Below the pieces are notes generated by a model. It saw only the letters and a list, made by a program, of their open reading frames with translations. It was not told where the DNA came from and did not search any database. Shown here piece after piece: positions 1-10,718 of a stretch of 24,561 nt of DNA. Every line of letters starts with the position of its first letter. Position 1 is the stretch's first letter. Made by a program: the position numbers and the translations under genes. The DNA is from a virus, in IMG/VR virus record IMGVR_UViG_3300029319_000488, positions 1 to 24,561 of that record; one strand, written 5' to 3'.

Positions 1-345
1 GTAGCGCCGGGTATACGTCATCGCCTTACCCCACTCCTGCGTGCCGTTTTTACCGGCGTTGATCGTGAGGGGCGTGACAGATGAAACCATCTGTCCGCTG
101 ACGTGCATCAGCGTGGTGCGGAGGCCAGGCTGACCGTTGATCTGCTCTGGCAGCTGCGATACGGCGAGGCCGTTCGCTCGGAGGGCTGGGCCGATGGTGG
201 AGAGGATGCCCGGCAGATTGGCGAAACTGCCGTGATAGCTGTTGTCGTTGTCGTGGATCGTCGGGACTGCCTGCTGAAACTGAATCAGCGCAGCGGCGAG
301 ATCACTCAAGGGCTGTGACGGTGATGATTGCACAGGGTCGTTCAT
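1..345 (-). CDS. ERF-family single-strand annealing protein (partial)
   Basis: The minus strand is open from an ATG at 345 to the window edge, giving 115 residues with no stop, so the C-terminus is missing. The pattern is that of the ERF superfamily of phage annealing proteins: an N-terminal helix (SDLAAALIQFQQAV), a HGSFANLPGILSTIGPAL segment, a GLAVSQLPEQ strand, then LRTTLMHVSGQMVSS and finally GKAMTYTRRY, the usual ERF 'G-x-A-x-T-Y-x-R-R-Y' signature. ERF proteins pair complementary single strands during phage recombination. The gene starts 44 bp inside the 3' end of the RusA gene, so the two are probably co-transcribed and translationally coupled. A resolvase beside an annealase supports a recombination module. 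The family call rests on the motif order and is fairly secure. Confidence 0.85.
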   Translation of the reverse strand, partial: MNDPVQSSPSQPLSDLAAALIQFQQAVPTIHDNDNSYHGSFANLPGILSTIGPALRANGLAVSQLPEQINGQPGLRTTLMHVSGQMVSSVTPLTINAGKNGTQEWGKAMTYTRRY

Positions 346-742
346 CAGGGTTGGCGTAGCGGCGGTGGGCGATGAGGCTGACGACCTGAGAGTCGTCGTC
401 ATAGGCAACCCCAGTCAGCGCGTCGCAGACCGCCCGACAGAGTTTGTCGAGGTCTCCGATGCGCTTGACGGAGTATTTAGGTGCGTTTGCTTTCAGCTCG
501 CGGGCGGGATCGCCTGCGACGTGATGGCTGTTCGGGCGCTTGAAAACAAATGTGGCTTCCACCTGCATTGGCATTATGGCGCGCCATGGCAGGGTATGCA
601 AAGCCTCCTCAGCGGCGAACTTCACGTCTGATCGCCATGGCTTTGTCCGAGAGCTGGACTCGACCATGACGCCTCGGCCCTTGTGGGTTTTGCTGCCCTG
701 GGGAGCCGGGACGCCGGGGACGATAAACGTGAAGCTGTTCAT
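302..742 (-). CDS. rusA: RusA-family Holliday junction resolvase
   Basis: This 146-residue protein has the normal length and motif order of RusA endonucleases, which cut four-way DNA junctions as dimers with Mg2+. Visible features are the N-terminal VPGVPAPQGSK strand and loop, KPWRSDV near residue 36, and the acidic core GDLDKLCRAVCDAL (residues 96-109) followed by YDDDSQV (114-120). In RusA the catalytic aspartates lie in such DxDK and YDDD segments. The start overlaps the stop of the upstream helix-turn-helix gene by ATGA, and its 3' end overlaps the ERF start. An early-region palindrome, ATGGCGCGCCAT, lies inside the coding sequence at 576-587 and encodes part of LPWRAIM. The function call is strong; no key residue looks missing. 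Confidence 0.92.
   Translation of the reverse strand: MNSFTFIVPGVPAPQGSKTHKGRGVMVESSSRTKPWRSDVKFAAEEALHTLPWRAIMPMQVEATFVFKRPNSHHVAGDPARELKANAPKYSVKRIGDLDKLCRAVCDALTGVAYDDDSQVVSLIAHRRYANPDERPCAIITVTALE
576..587. repeat. Palindrome ATGGCGCGCCAT, copy 1 (inside rusA)
   Basis: This is a perfect 12-bp palindrome identical to those at 2349, 5443 and 5908. It differs from the others in lying inside a coding gene and in lacking a convincing -10 box or leader motif at the expected distance. It may be a bound but silent site, or may be fortuitous. Confidence 0.7.
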
Positions 743-2336: not shown

Positions 2337-2365
2337 ATATTAGCCCTTATGGCGCGCCATGGGAA
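2337..2365 (-). promoter_or_regulatory. Promoter-like module with palindrome in the spacer (copy 3)
   Basis: On the minus strand TTCCCA (2365-2360) and TAATAT (2342-2337) are placed 17 nt apart, and the spacer starts with TGGCGCGCCA; the full perfect palindrome ATGGCGCGCCAT occupies 2349-2360. The module overlaps the last codons of the zinc-ribbon gene, and it would drive the 55-aa gene at 2300. Confidence 0.5.
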
Positions 2366-2600
2366 GGAAGGATGGGCGGTACATACCCGCCGTTTCCTCC
2401 AGCTCCTCCACCAGCTCATCCCGGACTTTGAATGTCCCCCAGTTCCCGGCCTGCGATGAGATCGGTGGACAGGTGATTTCAGCCGTCGGCCAGGTATGAG
2501 CGCAGATCTTGCACTGGCGTTTGCGGCTGATCACCCCCTTCCCTGTATGGCGAGATTCGAGGACGCAGATCAGCGTGGCGCCGCAGCTGGGGCAGTTCAT
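2340..2600 (-). CDS. Zinc-ribbon protein, NrdR N-terminus-like
   Basis: The protein has 86 residues starting MNCPSCGATL at the ATG at 2600; this start shares one base with the upstream stop (TGATG), so it is preferred to the TTG one codon earlier. Residues about 2-42 form a four-cysteine zinc ribbon: CPSC, then a basic segment SRHTGKGVISRKRQC with KICAHTW. This order (CPxC, strand, ESRxxxxGxxxRKRQCxxC, aromatic) resembles the N-terminal zinc ribbon of NrdR-type repressors, but the ATP-cone that follows in true NrdR is absent. The second half is acidic and helical (VRDELVEELEETAG). It probably binds DNA or another protein. The 3' end contains the palindrome at 2349-2360 (encoding MARH). Confidence 0.7.
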   Translation of the reverse strand: MNCPSCGATLICVLESRHTGKGVISRKRQCKICAHTWPTAEITCPPISSQAGNWGTFKVRDELVEELEETAGMYRPSFLPMARHKG

Positions 2601-3298
2601 CAAAAATCAGGTTGGTCGAGTTCATACCGGGCCCAGATGTCCTCCCATGCGGCTCGGCAGTCCTCGGGATCCTCTCGGATCACGCGGCAGCCCTCCGGGC
2701 CAGAGACCACGGTGACGCATTGATCGACGCGCAGATCAGGATGGTGCTGCTGCAGCATCCCCAGGTACGCACCGAGCTGGGCGGTGGCCGGCTTTCGCCT
2801 TTTTAGCGCCTGGGCGGAGGAAACAGTCTTCAGATCTCCCAAAACCATCAGCCCTGAGGCTCCCGGCTCATCCAGCTCAACCAAAAAGTCAAAACTGCCG
2901 CCCATCGAGCGGGCCTCATCCACCAGCCGATACTCACAGGCATGTAGCTGTATGCGGTTGAACAGCGCCTCGTCGAGGAGCGGCTTGATCCATGGCTCCC
3001 ACATCTCGTCATGCACGCAGGGCTCGCCCTTGAGGTGATGCTCGAGCACTTTGTGGATAGCCGCGCCACGAGCCGCCCAGCCCCTCGGTCCATTTTTGTA
3101 ACGCTCCATCCCTGCGCGCTGGATGTCCGTCAGCTGATAGCCGACAACCTCCGATACAGAGCGGGCCAACAGCTCCCCGCGATAGCTGTAGCGGTGATAC
3201 GTCTCGTCGAGGAGCAGTTCGGGGATTGGACTGAGCAACTGGGCCTTGCATGGCCGGCCAACAATGGCAGAGTCAGGGCCCGAATCAAGCCCTGCCAA
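2600..3298 (-). CDS. PD-(D/E)XK nuclease, RecB/Cas4-like phage exonuclease
   Basis: The protein has 232 residues. The nuclease motifs are in the expected order: RGAAIHKVLEHHL with H82, E122 in the ACEYRL helix, GGSFDFLVEL with D137, LGDLKT with D155 and K157, and ATAQLGAYLGML with Q174 and Y178. This is the RecB-type core used by phage 5'-3' exonucleases that prepare single strands for an annealing protein, so it is likely the partner of ERF. The start is uncertain. The only start near the N-terminus is a TTG at 3298, since an in-frame stop lies just upstream (3305-3307); a later TTG at 3238 is possible. That TTG overlaps the divergent plus-strand start, which is unusual. Confidence 0.82.
   Translation of the reverse strand: MAGLDSGPDSAIVGRPCKAQLLSPIPELLLDETYHRYSYRGELLARSVSEVVGYQLTDIQRAGMERYKNGPRGWAARGAAIHKVLEHHLKGEPCVHDEMWEPWIKPLLDEALFNRIQLHACEYRLVDEARSMGGSFDFLVELDEPGASGLMVLGDLKTVSSAQALKRRKPATAQLGAYLGMLQQHHPDLRVDQCVTVVSGPEGCRVIREDPEDCRAAWEDIWARYELDQPDF
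3251..3260. repeat. Related palindrome TGGCCGGCCA
   Basis: This perfect 10-bp palindrome has the same outer TGG/CCA as the early-region palindrome but a CCGG centre in place of CGCG. It lies 37 bp before the ATG at 3298, a distance like that seen for the other modules, and inside the 5' end of the nuclease gene. It may be a variant operator; alone it is weak evidence. Confidence 0.3.
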
Positions 3299-7188: not shown

Positions 7189-7303
7189 CCTGGTTGGTTT
7201 TGTCGACTCTCAGCATCTAGTTGATCCAAAGATCTTGCAGCTGCAGGTAGCGTGGCGACAGCGAAACAACCCGCGTGGAGTCAATCAACAGCCTGAAGTC
7301 TGA
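7130..7303 (+). CDS. Small protein, 57 aa, before the methyltransferase
   Basis: A reading frame from the ATG at 7130 (MPNPKIRVLNTGVIRIQIDD) runs to 7303; earlier in-frame ATGs at 7106 and 7124 are equally possible, and none has a clear ribosome-binding site. The sequence looks coding, with alternating hydrophobic residues (VIRIQIDDLVGFVD) and a DPKILQLQVAW strand, suggesting a small beta protein. It overlaps the 3' end of the cyAbrB-like gene by 59 bp and the methyltransferase GTG by 29 bp. No family was recognised. Confidence 0.45.
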   Translation: MPNPKIRVLNTGVIRIQIDDLVGFVDSQHLVDPKILQLQVAWRQRNNPRGVNQQPEV

Positions 7304-8843
7304 CCATAAAAACGCACGGAAACGCACAGATCGATCCTCTGAACTAATCAAAGAGTCCCTGCAGCGCTACGGCGCCGCTCGCTCCATCGTCATCGACGAG
7401 GAGAACCGCATCCTCGCCGGCAACGGCACTGTCGAGGGTGCCAAAGCTGCCGGCATCAGCAACATCCGCGTCATTGAGTCAGAGGGCGACGAGATCATCG
7501 CGGTGCGCCGCACCGGCCTCTCTGAGGAGCAAAAGGTCGGCCTCGCTCTCGCCGATAACCGCACCTCTGATCTGTCGACCTGGGATCAGGAGATGCTGAA
7601 CCGGCTCTCTGATGAGCACGACATCAGCCCCTGGTTCTCTGATGCAGATTTGACCGGCCTGGCAGAGGCAGAGGATCTGTCGGCATTTGATGAGGCTGTT
7701 GAGGATTCGATCGAGGCAGAGACAGCGCAGCCCGGCGCCAAGCTCGCTGATCGGTTTGGCATCGCTCCGTTCTCAATCCTCAACGCCCGCGAGGGTTGGT
7801 GGCAGGAGCGCAAACGGCAGTGGCTGGATCTCGGCATCCAGTCAGAGGTCGGCCGTGAGGGCAACCTCCTCGGCATGTCCGAGACGGTCCTGCAGCCTGA
7901 TGAGCAGCTGCGTCAGCTGAAGGAGGCCCTGCAGGCTGGGGGCGGCGCAGGCAACGGCAGCATCCACGCCAAAATCCCCGGCTACTACCAGAAGAAAAAT
8001 GCCGGCATGAGCGACGAGGAGATCGTCGCCGAGTTCCTCGACTCTGGCTCTCAAATCGGCGCAGGCACCTCGATCTTCGATCCTGTCCTCGCCGAGCTGG
8101 CCTACCGCTGGTTCTCGCCCCAAGACGGCATCATTCTCGATCCGTTTGCCGGCGGATCAGTGCGCGGCATCGTTGCCTTGAAATCAGGTCGGCAGTACAT
8201 CGGCTGCGATCTCCGGGCTGAGCAGGTTGAGGCGAACCGGGCCCAGGGCGCAGAGATCACCCCGGACAACCCGCCCATTTGGCACTGCAGCGACTCCCGG
8301 AACATCGATCGCGTTTGCGAGGGTCTTCAGGCCGACATGATCTTCTCCTGCCCTCCGTACGCAGATCTCGAGGTTTACAGCGACAACCCCAAGGATCTGT
8401 CCACGCTGCCCTATGACCAGTTCGTCGAAAGCTACCGGGAGATCATCGACAAATCCTGCAGCCTGCTGAAGGACAACGCGTTTGCCTGTTTCGTTGTCGG
8501 CGATGTCCGCGACAAAAAGGGCAACTACTACAACTTCGTCGGCGACACCATCAAAGCGTTCACCGATGCAGGGCTCAGCTACTACAACGAGGCGATCCTG
8601 ATCACCCCCGTCGGCACCCTGCCGATCAGGGCCGGCCGCACATTTGCCAGCACCCGCAAGCTCGGCAAAACCCATCAGAACGTCCTCGTGTTCCTCAAGG
8701 GCGATGCCCGCAAAGCCGTGGCCGCCTGCGGCGAATGTGATTTCGCCGACGTTGAGGAGCAGCCTGCAGAGCATGGCCCTGTCGCTGAGAGCACTGAGTA
8801 CGGCGAAAAGCTGACCGCTGATTCCATCGGAGGTGAGCTGTGA
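7275..8843 (+). CDS. ParB-like domain fused to a DNA methyltransferase
   Basis: The protein has 522 residues from a GTG start. Residues 1-100 form a ParB/Srx-like domain: INSLKSDHKNARKRTD, RYGAARSIVIDEENRILAGN with the G-N-G-T motif (49-52), and the ALADNRTSDL tail. Residues about 155-205 form a linker region conserved in phage ParB-methylases (RFGIAPFSILNAREGWWQE). The methylase follows: FxGxG-type motif I DPFAGGSVRG (289-298) and catalytic motif IV SCPPYADL (358-365), then FVVGD and a KTHQNVLVFLKG end. S-P-P-Y indicates amino-methylation (N6-adenine or N4-cytosine) of phage DNA. Motif I precedes IV. It has no partner restriction enzyme here, so it is likely an orphan that protects or marks phage DNA. 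The stop overlaps the next GTG. Confidence 0.85.
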   Translation: MESINSLKSDHKNARKRTDRSSELIKESLQRYGAARSIVIDEENRILAGNGTVEGAKAAGISNIRVIESEGDEIIAVRRTGLSEEQKVGLALADNRTSDLSTWDQEMLNRLSDEHDISPWFSDADLTGLAEAEDLSAFDEAVEDSIEAETAQPGAKLADRFGIAPFSILNAREGWWQERKRQWLDLGIQSEVGREGNLLGMSETVLQPDEQLRQLKEALQAGGGAGNGSIHAKIPGYYQKKNAGMSDEEIVAEFLDSGSQIGAGTSIFDPVLAELAYRWFSPQDGIILDPFAGGSVRGIVALKSGRQYIGCDLRAEQVEANRAQGAEITPDNPPIWHCSDSRNIDRVCEGLQADMIFSCPPYADLEVYSDNPKDLSTLPYDQFVESYREIIDKSCSLLKDNAFACFVVGDVRDKKGNYYNFVGDTIKAFTDAGLSYYNEAILITPVGTLPIRAGRTFASTRKLGKTHQNVLVFLKGDARKAVAACGECDFADVEEQPAEHGPVAESTEYGEKLTADSIGGEL

Positions 8844-10000
8844 GCGATGCACCCGCCTGGGCGCTCGGCTACGACCTGGCGTTCCTGAAGCAGCTCGCTG
8901 CTGTTTTCGCTCGCGATTTCAAGCCGCACTGCTACGGAGCGTTCGGCCTCCCAAAAGAGCGCGACATCGCTACGGCGATGAAGGAGGGGCAGCTGGCGTG
9001 GACCCGCTCGCCCGACACCAACGCGATCGCTGCCGTGGTGATGTTTCGCATCGCCAAGGTCGCCAGCTCTCAGAGCGACTTCGCTCAGCGGCCGATCAGC
9101 ATCCACAAAGGTGATCTGCAGATCCGTGCCCTAGCGGGCAACTCTGCAGATCTCAGCAGGCTGGTCACCAAACTCATGGGCAAGGCTGGTCCACGGCCCG
9201 TTTGGATCGAGCTGCACGAGGAGAACCGGAAACTCAGAGATGTCGCGATCAGCCTCGGCTTCAAGCCTGTAGCAACCAAGGTCACCGCCTCATCTGACAT
9301 CAAAGCGCTCTACATCCATGGAGTGCCCAACCCCGCAGCTCGCGTGCAGGGCAGCCTGCACCCCTCCGACATCCCTGCCCTCAAGCTCCTGGGATGTGGC
9401 GCCATGCCCGGCGAGATCCAAAAATGCCTCGATGAGATCGCTGCGTTCAACCCTGCATGGGAGCAGCACTACAGCTCCTACAACAAACGCAAAAGCTGGA
9501 CGGCCATCGCTCTGCAGGGGTTCGATCCTTCTGATCCTGGCTTCATCATCAAGCCCGCAGAGATGAGCAAAGGGTGGAAACAGGACAACCCTGAGCGCCT
9601 GAAAGCCGCCTGCGCTCCAACCATCGCAGCGATGGCGATGCCCACCGTTTGGATGCTGGCCCAGAGCGTTCCCGGCAAGCTCGAGCGGGTTCGCCTCATG
9701 CGGCTTCGCGCCTCAAACGGAGAGTTGACTCGTCATGCCGACATCACAGATCGAGATGCCGGCACTGCAGACGGCAGGATTGCTCGCCTGCACATCCCGC
9801 TGCAAACAGCCGAGGGCTGCGAGTTCTCCGGCTGGGAGCTGACGGGCAACCGCACCCGCCGGCATTTCCCCGCCGGCTCGCTGTTCTATCTCGACATCCG
9901 AAAACCGCACGCGGTCAAAAACACCAGCGACTGCGACCGGATCCACCTAGTGGTCGATGTCGCCTGCAACGCTCAAACCCGGAGGTTGATCGATGCCTGA
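8840..10000 (+). CDS. GNAT-like domain fused to an aspartyl-hydroxylase-type 2OG-Fe(II) oxygenase
   Basis: The protein has 386 residues. A GTG at 8840 follows a strong GGAGGTGA site and overlaps the methyltransferase stop. Residues about 20-160 resemble a GNAT acyltransferase: a central strand (AIAAVVMFRIAKVA), and VWIELHEENRKLRDVAISLG with FKPVATKV at the end, the usual 'E-N-x-x-x-x-x-A-x-x-x-G-F-x-x-V' GNAT tail. Residues about 280-375 match aspartyl/asparaginyl beta-hydroxylases: TRHADITDRDAG with the H299-x-D301 iron pair, RIARLHIPLQT, FPAGSLFYLDIRKPHAV with H357, and DRIHLVVD with R367 to bind 2-oxoglutarate. All iron ligands are present. Role is unknown; coupling to a DNA methylase makes DNA modification a reasonable guess. 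Confidence 0.72.
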   Translation: MSDAPAWALGYDLAFLKQLAAVFARDFKPHCYGAFGLPKERDIATAMKEGQLAWTRSPDTNAIAAVVMFRIAKVASSQSDFAQRPISIHKGDLQIRALAGNSADLSRLVTKLMGKAGPRPVWIELHEENRKLRDVAISLGFKPVATKVTASSDIKALYIHGVPNPAARVQGSLHPSDIPALKLLGCGAMPGEIQKCLDEIAAFNPAWEQHYSSYNKRKSWTAIALQGFDPSDPGFIIKPAEMSKGWKQDNPERLKAACAPTIAAMAMPTVWMLAQSVPGKLERVRLMRLRASNGELTRHADITDRDAGTADGRIARLHIPLQTAEGCEFSGWELTGNRTRRHFPAGSLFYLDIRKPHAVKNTSDCDRIHLVVDVACNAQTRRLIDA

Positions 10001-10718
10001 TCGTTGGTGGCAGCCCACGCCGATCATCGACCGCCACGATCGGTTCCTCATCGTGCGGGATGACCAGGTGCCTGGCGGCTCAAAGATGAGGTTCCTGCCC
10101 TATCTCGTGCAGGATGCCAAGGAGGTTGTGTTCGGCGGCCCCTTTTGCGGCGGTGCTCCTTACGCCCTGTCTGTATGGGGACAGCGAACCAACAGCAAGA
10201 TCACGCTGTTCTACGCCAAACGAAAGGAGCTGCACATCCGCCAAAAGAAAGCCCTGCTCAATGGCGCAACGATCTATCAGGTGCCCTACGGCTACATGAC
10301 GAACGTGCAGGCAAAGGCCAAGCGCTACGCCCGAGAGCATGGCGCTTTGTTCCTCCCGCTCGGTTTCGACGTGCCTGAGGCTTCGAACCCTTTCATCGAA
10401 CAGATGCGCCGCGTTCGATCGATGGTTGGCAACGTTGATCAGGTGTGGGCCGCAACCGGCTCAGGGATGCTGGCCCGCTGTCTTGGCGAGGCGTTCTACC
10501 CAACGCCTGTTCATGGCGTGATCGTTGGCCTGGCGAGCCGCAACTCGAAGCAGCAGTATCCAGACAATGTCACGTTGCACGAGTACCCGAAACAGTTCTC
10601 GTGGTCCTGTTCCTACGAGGCGCCCTTTCCAACATGCGGAAACTACGATCGGAAAGCATGGGAGTTATGTCACAAACTGTCAGCAGGGACAGTTCTGTTT
10701 TGGAATGTTCTGGGGTGA
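9993..10718 (+). CDS. PLP-dependent enzyme-like protein (fold type II)
   Basis: The protein has 241 residues from an ATG with a strong GGAGGTTGATCG leader, overlapping the oxygenase stop by eight bases. The order resembles fold-type-II PLP enzymes such as ACC deaminase and cysteine synthase: FLIVRDDQVPGGSKMRFLPY with candidate Schiff-base lysine K31, VVFGGPFCGGAPYALS for the substrate loop, LLNGATIYQVPYGYMTN, LPLGF, then VWAATGSGMLARCLGE (151-166) in the place of the glycine-rich phosphate loop. It is shorter than free-living relatives (usually over 300 residues), the reduction being C-terminal, and it ends in a Cys/Trp-rich tail. A lyase or amino-transfer reaction is likely. Alternatively it is a diverged non-catalytic member. 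Confidence 0.55.
   Translation: MPDRWWQPTPIIDRHDRFLIVRDDQVPGGSKMRFLPYLVQDAKEVVFGGPFCGGAPYALSVWGQRTNSKITLFYAKRKELHIRQKKALLNGATIYQVPYGYMTNVQAKAKRYAREHGALFLPLGFDVPEASNPFIEQMRRVRSMVGNVDQVWAATGSGMLARCLGEAFYPTPVHGVIVGLASRNSKQQYPDNVTLHEYPKQFSWSCSYEAPFPTCGNYDRKAWELCHKLSAGTVLFWNVLG

Follow-up and report, generated by a model that had tools for sequence, protein, structure and literature searches.

A viral gene cassette built around a ParB-methyltransferase-fold protein and its predicted role in DNA hypermodification with amino-acid-type chemistry

We analyzed a 24.6 kb stretch of viral DNA (24,561 nucleotides; IMG/VR virus record IMGVR_UViG_3300029319_000488), hereafter called the window, which is probably a fragment of a larger virus genome. 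It carries a cassette of three overlapping genes encoding a ParB-like domain joined to a methyltransferase (MTase) fold (gene 1), a GNAT fold fused to a 2-oxoglutarate (2OG)-Fe(II) oxygenase (gene 2), and a short-form pyridoxal 5′-phosphate (PLP)-dependent enzyme of fold type II (gene 3, or PALP). We hold with considerable confidence that this cassette serves DNA base hypermodification with amino-acid-type chemistry. The features of the locus, with S-adenosylmethionine abbreviated as SAM, are as follows.

7275–8843, plus strand: gene 1, ParB plus N6/N4-MTase fold, GTG start, 522 amino acids (Pfam, PHROGs, alignment)
Gene 1 residues ~1–155, plus strand: ParB-like domain (ParB-like PHROGs match residues 3–241)
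Gene 1 residues ~161–185, plus strand: conserved motif [V/I/A]PPF-S-[V/I]-L..W..RK..W (alignment)
Gene 1 residues ~255–485, plus strand: N6/N4-MTase-fold domain (PF01555, 1.3e-12; phrog_498, 7.7e-109)
8139–8168, plus strand: SAM-binding motif I, DPFAGGSVRG, residues 289–298 (sequence, alignments)
8346–8360, plus strand: motif IV, S-C-P-P-Y, residues 358–362 (sequence, alignment)
8829–8843, plus strand: ribosome-binding site GGAGG (8829–8833) and GTGA, in which the gene 1 stop overlaps the gene 2 start (8840–8843) (sequence)
8840–10000, plus strand: gene 2, GNAT fold fused to 2OG-Fe(II) oxygenase, 386 amino acids (Pfam, structure model)
8873–9331, plus strand: GNAT-fold domain, residues 12–164 (AlphaFold2 model, fold comparison)
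9374–9997, plus strand: 2OG-Fe(II) oxygenase domain, residues 179–386 (structure model, sequence match)
9734–9742, plus strand: iron ligands H299-x-D301 (alignment)
9908–9910, plus strand: third iron ligand H357; 9938–9940, plus strand: R367 (alignment)
9993–10000, plus strand: eight-base overlap of genes 2 and 3, with GGAGG at 9981–9985 (sequence)
9993–10718, plus strand: gene 3, PALP, 241 amino acids (Pfam, PHROGs, structure)
10083–10085, plus strand: K31 within GG[STA]K, presumed to form the Schiff base with PLP (invariant, 26/26)
10458–10466, plus strand: G156-S157-G158, presumed PLP phosphate loop (invariant, 26/26)

The three open reading frames (522, 386 and 241 codons for amino acids) lie where an earlier note on this DNA had placed them, and they share the overlaps it described, with the gene 3 ATG at 9993 and the gene 2 stop codon at 9998–10000. 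That note had also assigned a strong ribosome-binding site to each gene. This is true for two of the three, as evident by the GGAGG sequences located at the usual spacing before genes 2 and 3, because no clear Shine-Dalgarno sequence was seen upstream of the gene 1 GTG (7275). The cassette resides between replication and packaging functions as the note had stated, with replication-type genes upstream and a terminase directly downstream. All three genes exhibit ratios of nonsynonymous to synonymous substitution rates (dN/dS) of 0.025–0.072 when compared with contigs L008–L010 (L numbers are labels of the comparison loci and contigs collected). The gene set is under strong purifying selection and does not reflect chance.

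The AlphaFold2 model of the 386-residue gene 2 product (pLDDT, the predicted local distance difference test score, of 95) makes firm what had previously been called only ‘GNAT-like’, since the N-terminal domain superimposes on the GNAT acetyltransferase 2pc1 (Z 13.6, 143 residues aligned, 3.4 Å). This half of the protein has no match in Pfam or PHROGs, and by profile comparison it is similar to GNAT-like proteins that occur on their own in T4-like phages (E 1.7e-4, probability 49%). The earlier prediction of an iron-dependent oxygenase is borne out by the C-terminal domain, which matches PF05118 (Asp_Arg_Hydrox, 1.1e-8, above cut-off) and recovers L-proline cis-4-hydroxylase 4p7w in a sequence search (E 1.5e-6). 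The closest folds range from Z 16.7 to 15.5 and are led by this same hydroxylase (4p7x, Z 16.7, 183 residues aligned, 3.1 Å; 4p7w, Z 16.5), followed by a nucleoside-antibiotic beta-hydroxylase (7v4m, Z 16.4; 7v4f). The iron triad of H299, D301 and H357, as well as R367, is kept in all 31 aligned relatives. The domain shares its double-stranded beta-helix fold and iron ligands with these known enzymes, but it is only ~20% identical to them and is fused to a GNAT domain. Judging from the model, the 2OG domain appears close to hydroxylases that act on free amino acids.

A model of the 241-residue gene 3 product (pLDDT 92) likewise confirms the PLP-type enzyme anticipated by the note, and places it in fold type II. 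Its best folds are D-cysteine desulfhydrase (Z 22.2) and a homologue of 1-aminocyclopropane-1-carboxylate (ACC) deaminase (Z 22.0), with 236–240 residues aligned, and the O-acetylserine sulfhydrylases are nearly tied with these (Z ~21). Sequence searches yield cysteine synthases (E 6e-5) and PHROG 7093, labeled ‘threonine dehydratase’ (8e-29). The match to PALP PF00291 (1e-5) is below the Pfam cut-off (25.4 versus 35), which is passed by a relative, gp2 of mycobacteriophage AlanGrant. By analogy with characterized enzymes, the invariant K31 is presumed to form the Schiff base with PLP and the invariant GSG to form the phosphate loop. Gene 3 shares its fold, the GG[STA]K lysine and the glycine-rich loop with D-cysteine desulfhydrase, ACC deaminase and cysteine synthase, but it is ~16% identical to them, shorter, and linked or fused to a DNA-targeting enzyme. 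Thus the folds present (proline hydroxylase; D-cysteine desulfhydrase, ACC deaminase or cysteine synthase; GNAT) fit amino-acid chemistry.

Viral contigs were scanned by using genes 2 and 3 as queries. The cassette recurs in dozens of them, in many cases with the same order and overlaps, and the three genes are found together across very divergent phages. When PALP sequences were clustered at 80% identity (a set that includes loci fetched by MTase or 2OG queries), an MTase was present within 4 kb in 29 of the 32 distinct clusters having enough upstream sequence. An independent, PALP-seeded scan of bacterial genomes revealed an MTase directly upstream at 15 of 18 loci, mostly in Alphaproteobacteria, with the remaining three being partial matches or lacking flanking sequence. 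These bacterial PALP and MTase pairs (L196–L210, mostly Alphaproteobacteria) are probably prophages. The association can be still closer. Single polypeptides of 812 and 829 amino acids contain ParB, MTase and PALP in Erythrobacter phage ZS04 and Pseudanabaena phage Pam4, respectively, PALP is joined to the MTase C-terminus in L173, and in AlanGrant the ParB-MTase gene (gp1) overlaps the PALP gene (gp2). Gene order varies, with PALP ahead of GNAT-2OG in L031. Genes found apart from one another mostly have other DNA-modification genes as neighbors, and a location beside unrelated pathways is not the rule. The shared DNA-modification pathway proposed in the earlier note is therefore well supported by co-occurrence in very divergent phages, by the PALP-MTase fusions, and by a second context for GNAT-2OG described below.

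The GNAT-2OG fusion also occurs without an MTase in actinophages, mostly in an operon with a Tet/JBP protein, an amino acid:DNA transferase (ADDT) and a P-loop kinase. In phage LilMcDreamy and in L080–L088, a single run of genes encodes ParB, Tet_JBP, ADDT, GNAT-2OG and P-loop kinase PF18751 (as far as the fragments reach), where the ADDT matches PF18724 above cut-off and the Tet_JBP match (PF12851) in L084 is just under cut-off. Among 32 distinct 2OG clusters, 22 have the MTase, seven have the full Tet, ADDT and kinase set, one has Tet and kinase, and two have neither. At least one partner of GNAT and 2OG thus comes from a family of enzymes that attach amino acids to DNA. Our best evidence for the role of GNAT-2OG is this placement: because the same fusion sits in the ADDT operon, it probably tailors an amino-acid-bearing base there. 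T4-like marine phages (L092–L113) present a third arrangement, grouping an MTase with the motif TSPPY, a 2OG gene that stands alone, and a small GNAT-like gene whose Pfam GNAT matches are weak. This triad is likely a relative of the cassette pathway without the PLP enzyme. With an MTase, an ADDT operon and a TSPPY MTase as partners, GNAT and 2OG evidently accompany base-modifying enzymes of different kinds.

In the window, PALP and MTase stand in place of the ADDT route. Pfam searches of the window proteins scanned gave no PF18724 or PF18746, local profiles gave no ADDT within 4 kb of the cassette, and neither a Tet/JBP protein nor an hmdUMP (5-hydroxymethyldeoxyuridine monophosphate) synthase was found among the scanned proteins of this window, which is probably only part of a genome. 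The alternative context also bears on whether proteins or tRNA, rather than DNA, could be the targets. The Asp_Arg_Hydrox and GNAT families do include protein-acting enzymes. However, the ParB-like and DNA-MTase domains of gene 1, together with the residence of GNAT-2OG beside Tet_JBP and an amino acid:DNA transferase, make such targets highly improbable.

Several annotations in these operons likely are in error. LilMcDreamy gp2 (L001 855–1787), annotated as a queuine tRNA-ribosyltransferase, looks Tet_JBP-like, and a link to 7-deazaguanine chemistry that its label had suggested was dropped when Pfam yielded Tet_JBP (below cut-off). Similarly, gp3 (L001 1784–2665), annotated as hypothetical, was considered as a PALP and rejected, because it is the ADDT. 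The ‘terminase small subunit’ gp5 (L001 3761–4333) matches P-loop kinase PF18751 (~1e-71), as does AlanGrant gp4 (L005 2571–3152; ~1e-71), another likely misannotation.

Phages M6, ViI and phiW-14 build their modified bases through 5-hydroxymethyldeoxyuridine (5hmdU), a DNA kinase and an amino acid:DNA transferase, followed by tailoring with PLP and GNAT enzymes. The products are hypermodified thymidines with amine side chains, of which those of M6 and ViI are 5hmdU-derived (PMC6449724). The window pathway resembles these in the amino-acid or amine groups proposed for its bases, in its PLP and GNAT tailoring classes, and in the occurrence of GNAT-2OG in an ADDT operon. It differs in that Tet/JBP, kinase and ADDT are absent from the window proteins scanned, its PLP enzyme has fold type II and is linked to a ParB-MTase, and its GNAT is fused to a 2OG domain resembling amino-acid hydroxylases.

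We next consider gene 1, whose MTase fold is compatible with the ‘methyl transfer to DNA’ proposed by the earlier note. It carries the SAM motif I of PF01555 amino-methyltransferases, matches PF01555 above cut-off and PHROG 498 (‘DNA methyltransferase’), and finds its closest solved chains among amino-MTases such as 2zie, MboIIA and CcrM. PADLOC, a tool for anti-phage defense, gives a generic MTase (MTase_II) plus weak matches only for gene 1 and no match for genes 2 and 3, and it finds no known defense system in the cassette. The enzyme departs from amino-methyltransferases at motif IV, where CPPY substitutes Cys for the D, N or S of [DNS]PP[YFW]. This residue (C359) is kept in 22 of 22 aligned family members, and among 206 distinct MTs the family form is [S/T/G]CPPY, with Cys present in 199. 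The seven other forms comprise six TS, consistent with the T4-like/L078 group, and a single SS, in L281; the T4-like marine phage relatives retain TSPPY. By analogy with 5-methylcytosine methylases, the CPPY cysteine is possibly a nucleophile acting at C5 of a pyrimidine. The family is large, with at least 583 relatives confirmed in one scan, and its enzymes currently carry the labels adenine methyltransferase or hypothetical protein. For example, gp36 of Enterococcus phage phiFL3A (‘DNA adenine methyltransferase’, PHROG 498 family) has the same ParB and MTase domains and CPPY at 36–38% identity, but it lacks an adjacent PALP, GNAT or 2OG gene.

The gene directly downstream of the ParB-MTase also distinguishes members of the family. 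This slot is occupied by PALP (overlapping in 31 of 34 cases) or by SpeD, a SAM decarboxylase (overlapping in 56 of 64), and elsewhere by a small second MTase (HCTV-2, L061, L091) or by nothing (phiFL3A, Funu2). The small N6_N4 MTases seen there have 204–213 amino acids (L007 5141–5782, L061 5603–6226, L091 7160–7774). On a tree of 100 ParB-MTase members, 18 changes of state are counted for PALP and 8 for 2OG, and therefore both appear to be optional, swappable modules of the family.

These observations bear on two ways in which the work might be divided differently. Gene 1 might simply encode an N6-adenine or N4-cytosine methyltransferase of the ordinary, self-protecting kind, with GNAT-2OG and PALP acting separately on small molecules or another base. 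The fold, the motif I, the database matches and the nearest solved chains all fit this explanation, as does the fact that many family members stand alone. It is nevertheless unlikely in our estimation, given the invariant cysteine at the D/N/S position of motif IV, the gene overlaps and PALP insertion into the MTase, and the SpeD partner with its matching motif I change, which is described below. Alternatively, the PLP enzyme itself could attach the amino acid, where a PLP-aminoacrylate formed as in cysteine synthase reacts with a base held out by the ParB-MTase. The alanyl-type base so formed would then be tailored by 2OG and GNAT. This scheme draws on the kinship of gene 3 to O-acetylserine sulfhydrylases in sequence and in fold (Z ~21), on the nested PALP-MTase fusion, and on the fact that PALP and MTase occupy the place taken elsewhere by ADDT. 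It is rather improbable, since the desulfhydrase and ACC deaminase lyases score slightly ahead as folds (Z 22 versus 21), the MTase is widely found without PALP, whose state changes so often on the tree, and the alignment suggests that the PALP insertion point lies away from the active-site side of the MTase.

A second line of evidence on gene 1 comes from the SpeD-linked branch of the family. A scan was seeded with the ZRG1 and P2559S enzymes and 80 loci were kept, in most of which a SpeD gene adjoins the ParB-MTase. The clade is represented by viral contigs L214–L293, along with ZRG1 (L115 3453–5298) and Croceibacter phage P2559S (L117 3480–5121). In a wider check of seven contigs, SpeD was present in L268 and L269 and was not found in the fragments L245, L246, L262, L263 and L280. 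One otherwise typical SpeD-linked ParB-MTase (L281 2734–4290; compare L271) carries SSPPY, a natural Cys-to-Ser variant and the only such member seen.

Motif I in this clade is D[TC]FAGDxxFG, in contrast to the GGSVRG of the window branch. Among 125 distinct members with the G/R form (FAGGSVRG), 66 have PALP and none has SpeD, whereas among 68 with the D/F form (FAGDxxFG), 64 have SpeD and none has PALP. One scan pattern included FAGD, so the D-form count is enriched, but SpeD played no part in choosing loci. The SpeD clade has a single origin on the 100-member tree (support 99), and the link between SpeD and motif I is, on this phylogeny, best read as one coupled event that has been retained since. 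SpeD generates decarboxylated SAM (dcSAM), an aminopropyl donor. The motif I loop of class I SAM enzymes sits close to the methionine moiety of the cofactor, and a switch of donor from SAM to dcSAM, with loss of the carboxylate, might require a replacement of G and Arg by Asp and Phe such as the one seen here.

The S, H and C residues needed for processing and catalysis by SAM decarboxylases (PMC10407285) are kept at the same spacing in 22 of 22 SpeD proteins aligned. Because P2559S SpeD restores spermidine in E. coli lacking speD (PMC9992855), it is a true SAM decarboxylase, and its gene overlaps that of the ParB-MTase. The P2559S SpeD thus holds the same overlapping downstream slot that PALP holds in the window branch, but differs from PALP in that it produces dcSAM (PMC9992855). 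This activity cannot be assumed for all phage SpeD proteins, since some have become arginine or ornithine decarboxylases (PMC10407285).

The main text of the P2559S study mentions no methyltransferase or ParB neighbor and reads phage SpeD as polyamine metabolism (PMC9992855). This invites the explanation that PALP and SpeD either supply the phage with spermidine as polyamine genes or deplete SAM as anti-restriction sinks, and adjoin the MTase only as fellow early anti-host genes. Phage SAM lyases are known as counter-defense enzymes (PMC7877911). However, SpeD is confined to the D/F motif I clade among the collected loci and usually overlaps the MTase, some phages carry PALP and MTase as a fusion, and neither of two annotated neighborhoods has a spermidine synthase annotation. 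We therefore regard this explanation as quite improbable.

Returning to hypermodification by the cassette, the motif IV cysteine, the association with SpeD and accessory enzymes of amino-acid type together suggest that gene 1 may transfer a group other than methyl, so the methyl portion of the earlier proposal is doubtful even as the MTase fold stands. That the ParB-MTase installs a non-methyl group is a serious possibility, though one to which we stop just short of committing. The invariant cysteine, the motif I switch, the overlapping SpeD and the proven activity of the P2559S enzyme lead us to propose, tentatively, that the CPPY ParB-‘methyltransferases’ are DNA aminoalkyl transferases. The SpeD clade would place 3-aminopropyl groups from dcSAM on DNA bases, and the window clade would use 3-amino-3-carboxypropyl from SAM, with elaboration by the PLP, 2OG and GNAT enzymes.

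As we infer them, the steps in the window branch could be as follows. The ParB domain would bring the MTase-fold enzyme to DNA, where SAM would be used to load a group onto a base. The partners of the MTase point to the 3-amino-3-carboxypropyl part of SAM as the likeliest group, ahead of methyl. The PLP enzyme may then act on the amino-acid side chain by elimination, deamination or replacement, the 2OG domain may hydroxylate this side chain, and the GNAT domain may acylate its amine. The final product would shield virion DNA from restriction. With an amino acid attached to DNA, the partnership with a PLP amino-acid enzyme, an amino-acid hydroxylase and a GNAT would make sense, and so would the replacement of the ParB-MTase by the ADDT route. 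On balance we favor this overall explanation, in which the MTase installs a group and the PLP, 2OG and GNAT enzymes tailor it.

Several observations weigh against it. Among the 100 tree members, 38 fall in none of the scored partner groups, and thus the ParB-MTase seems to work without partners. The site of the GNAT pyrophosphate loop (Q/R-x-x-G-x-G/A) looks shortened and has no clear motif, with beta4 ending at residue 100 and a helix starting at residue 102; because the loop looks degenerate in the model, use of acyl-CoA is uncertain. Due to its single origin, the SpeD and motif I switch counts as one co-change rather than many, and independent contrasts lacked pairs. The binding of the SAM carboxylate by motif I residues is presumed from SAM enzymes in general. 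AlanGrant carries the PF18751 kinase with no Tet or ADDT seen beside it, and therefore the occurrence of this kinase is not confined to the ADDT route. Finally, we found no biochemical data for any ParB-MTase of this family.

The earlier note treated this exact combination as not known to be characterized, and our literature search agrees: in the published work searched, with preprints outside the search, no paper was found on this cassette or on aminopropyl or aminocarboxypropyl phage DNA, and a search on CPPY methyltransferases gave nothing relevant. If our proposal is correct, a widespread phage DNA-modification family is hidden under adenine methyltransferase and hypothetical labels, and bases absent from the literature searched are predicted. 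Nature would then have a second route, alongside that of the amino acid:DNA transferases, for writing an amino acid onto DNA, and hypermodification of phage DNA would be connected with the aminopropyl and aminocarboxypropyl chemistry already familiar from polyamine and tRNA biology. Phage SpeD would also gain a concrete alternative to a polyamine role.

No named phage matches the window beyond 1% of its length. The virus is probably a cyanophage, because the 549-residue replication protein of the window is 41–49% identical to its nearest counterparts, in Synechococcus phages S-CBS3 and S-CBS1. Elsewhere in the window, positions 2340–2603 (minus strand) encode a small protein that has a zinc ribbon like that of NrdR (PF22811, 1.1e-9) but lacks the remainder of NrdR, adjoining an exonuclease-like gene.

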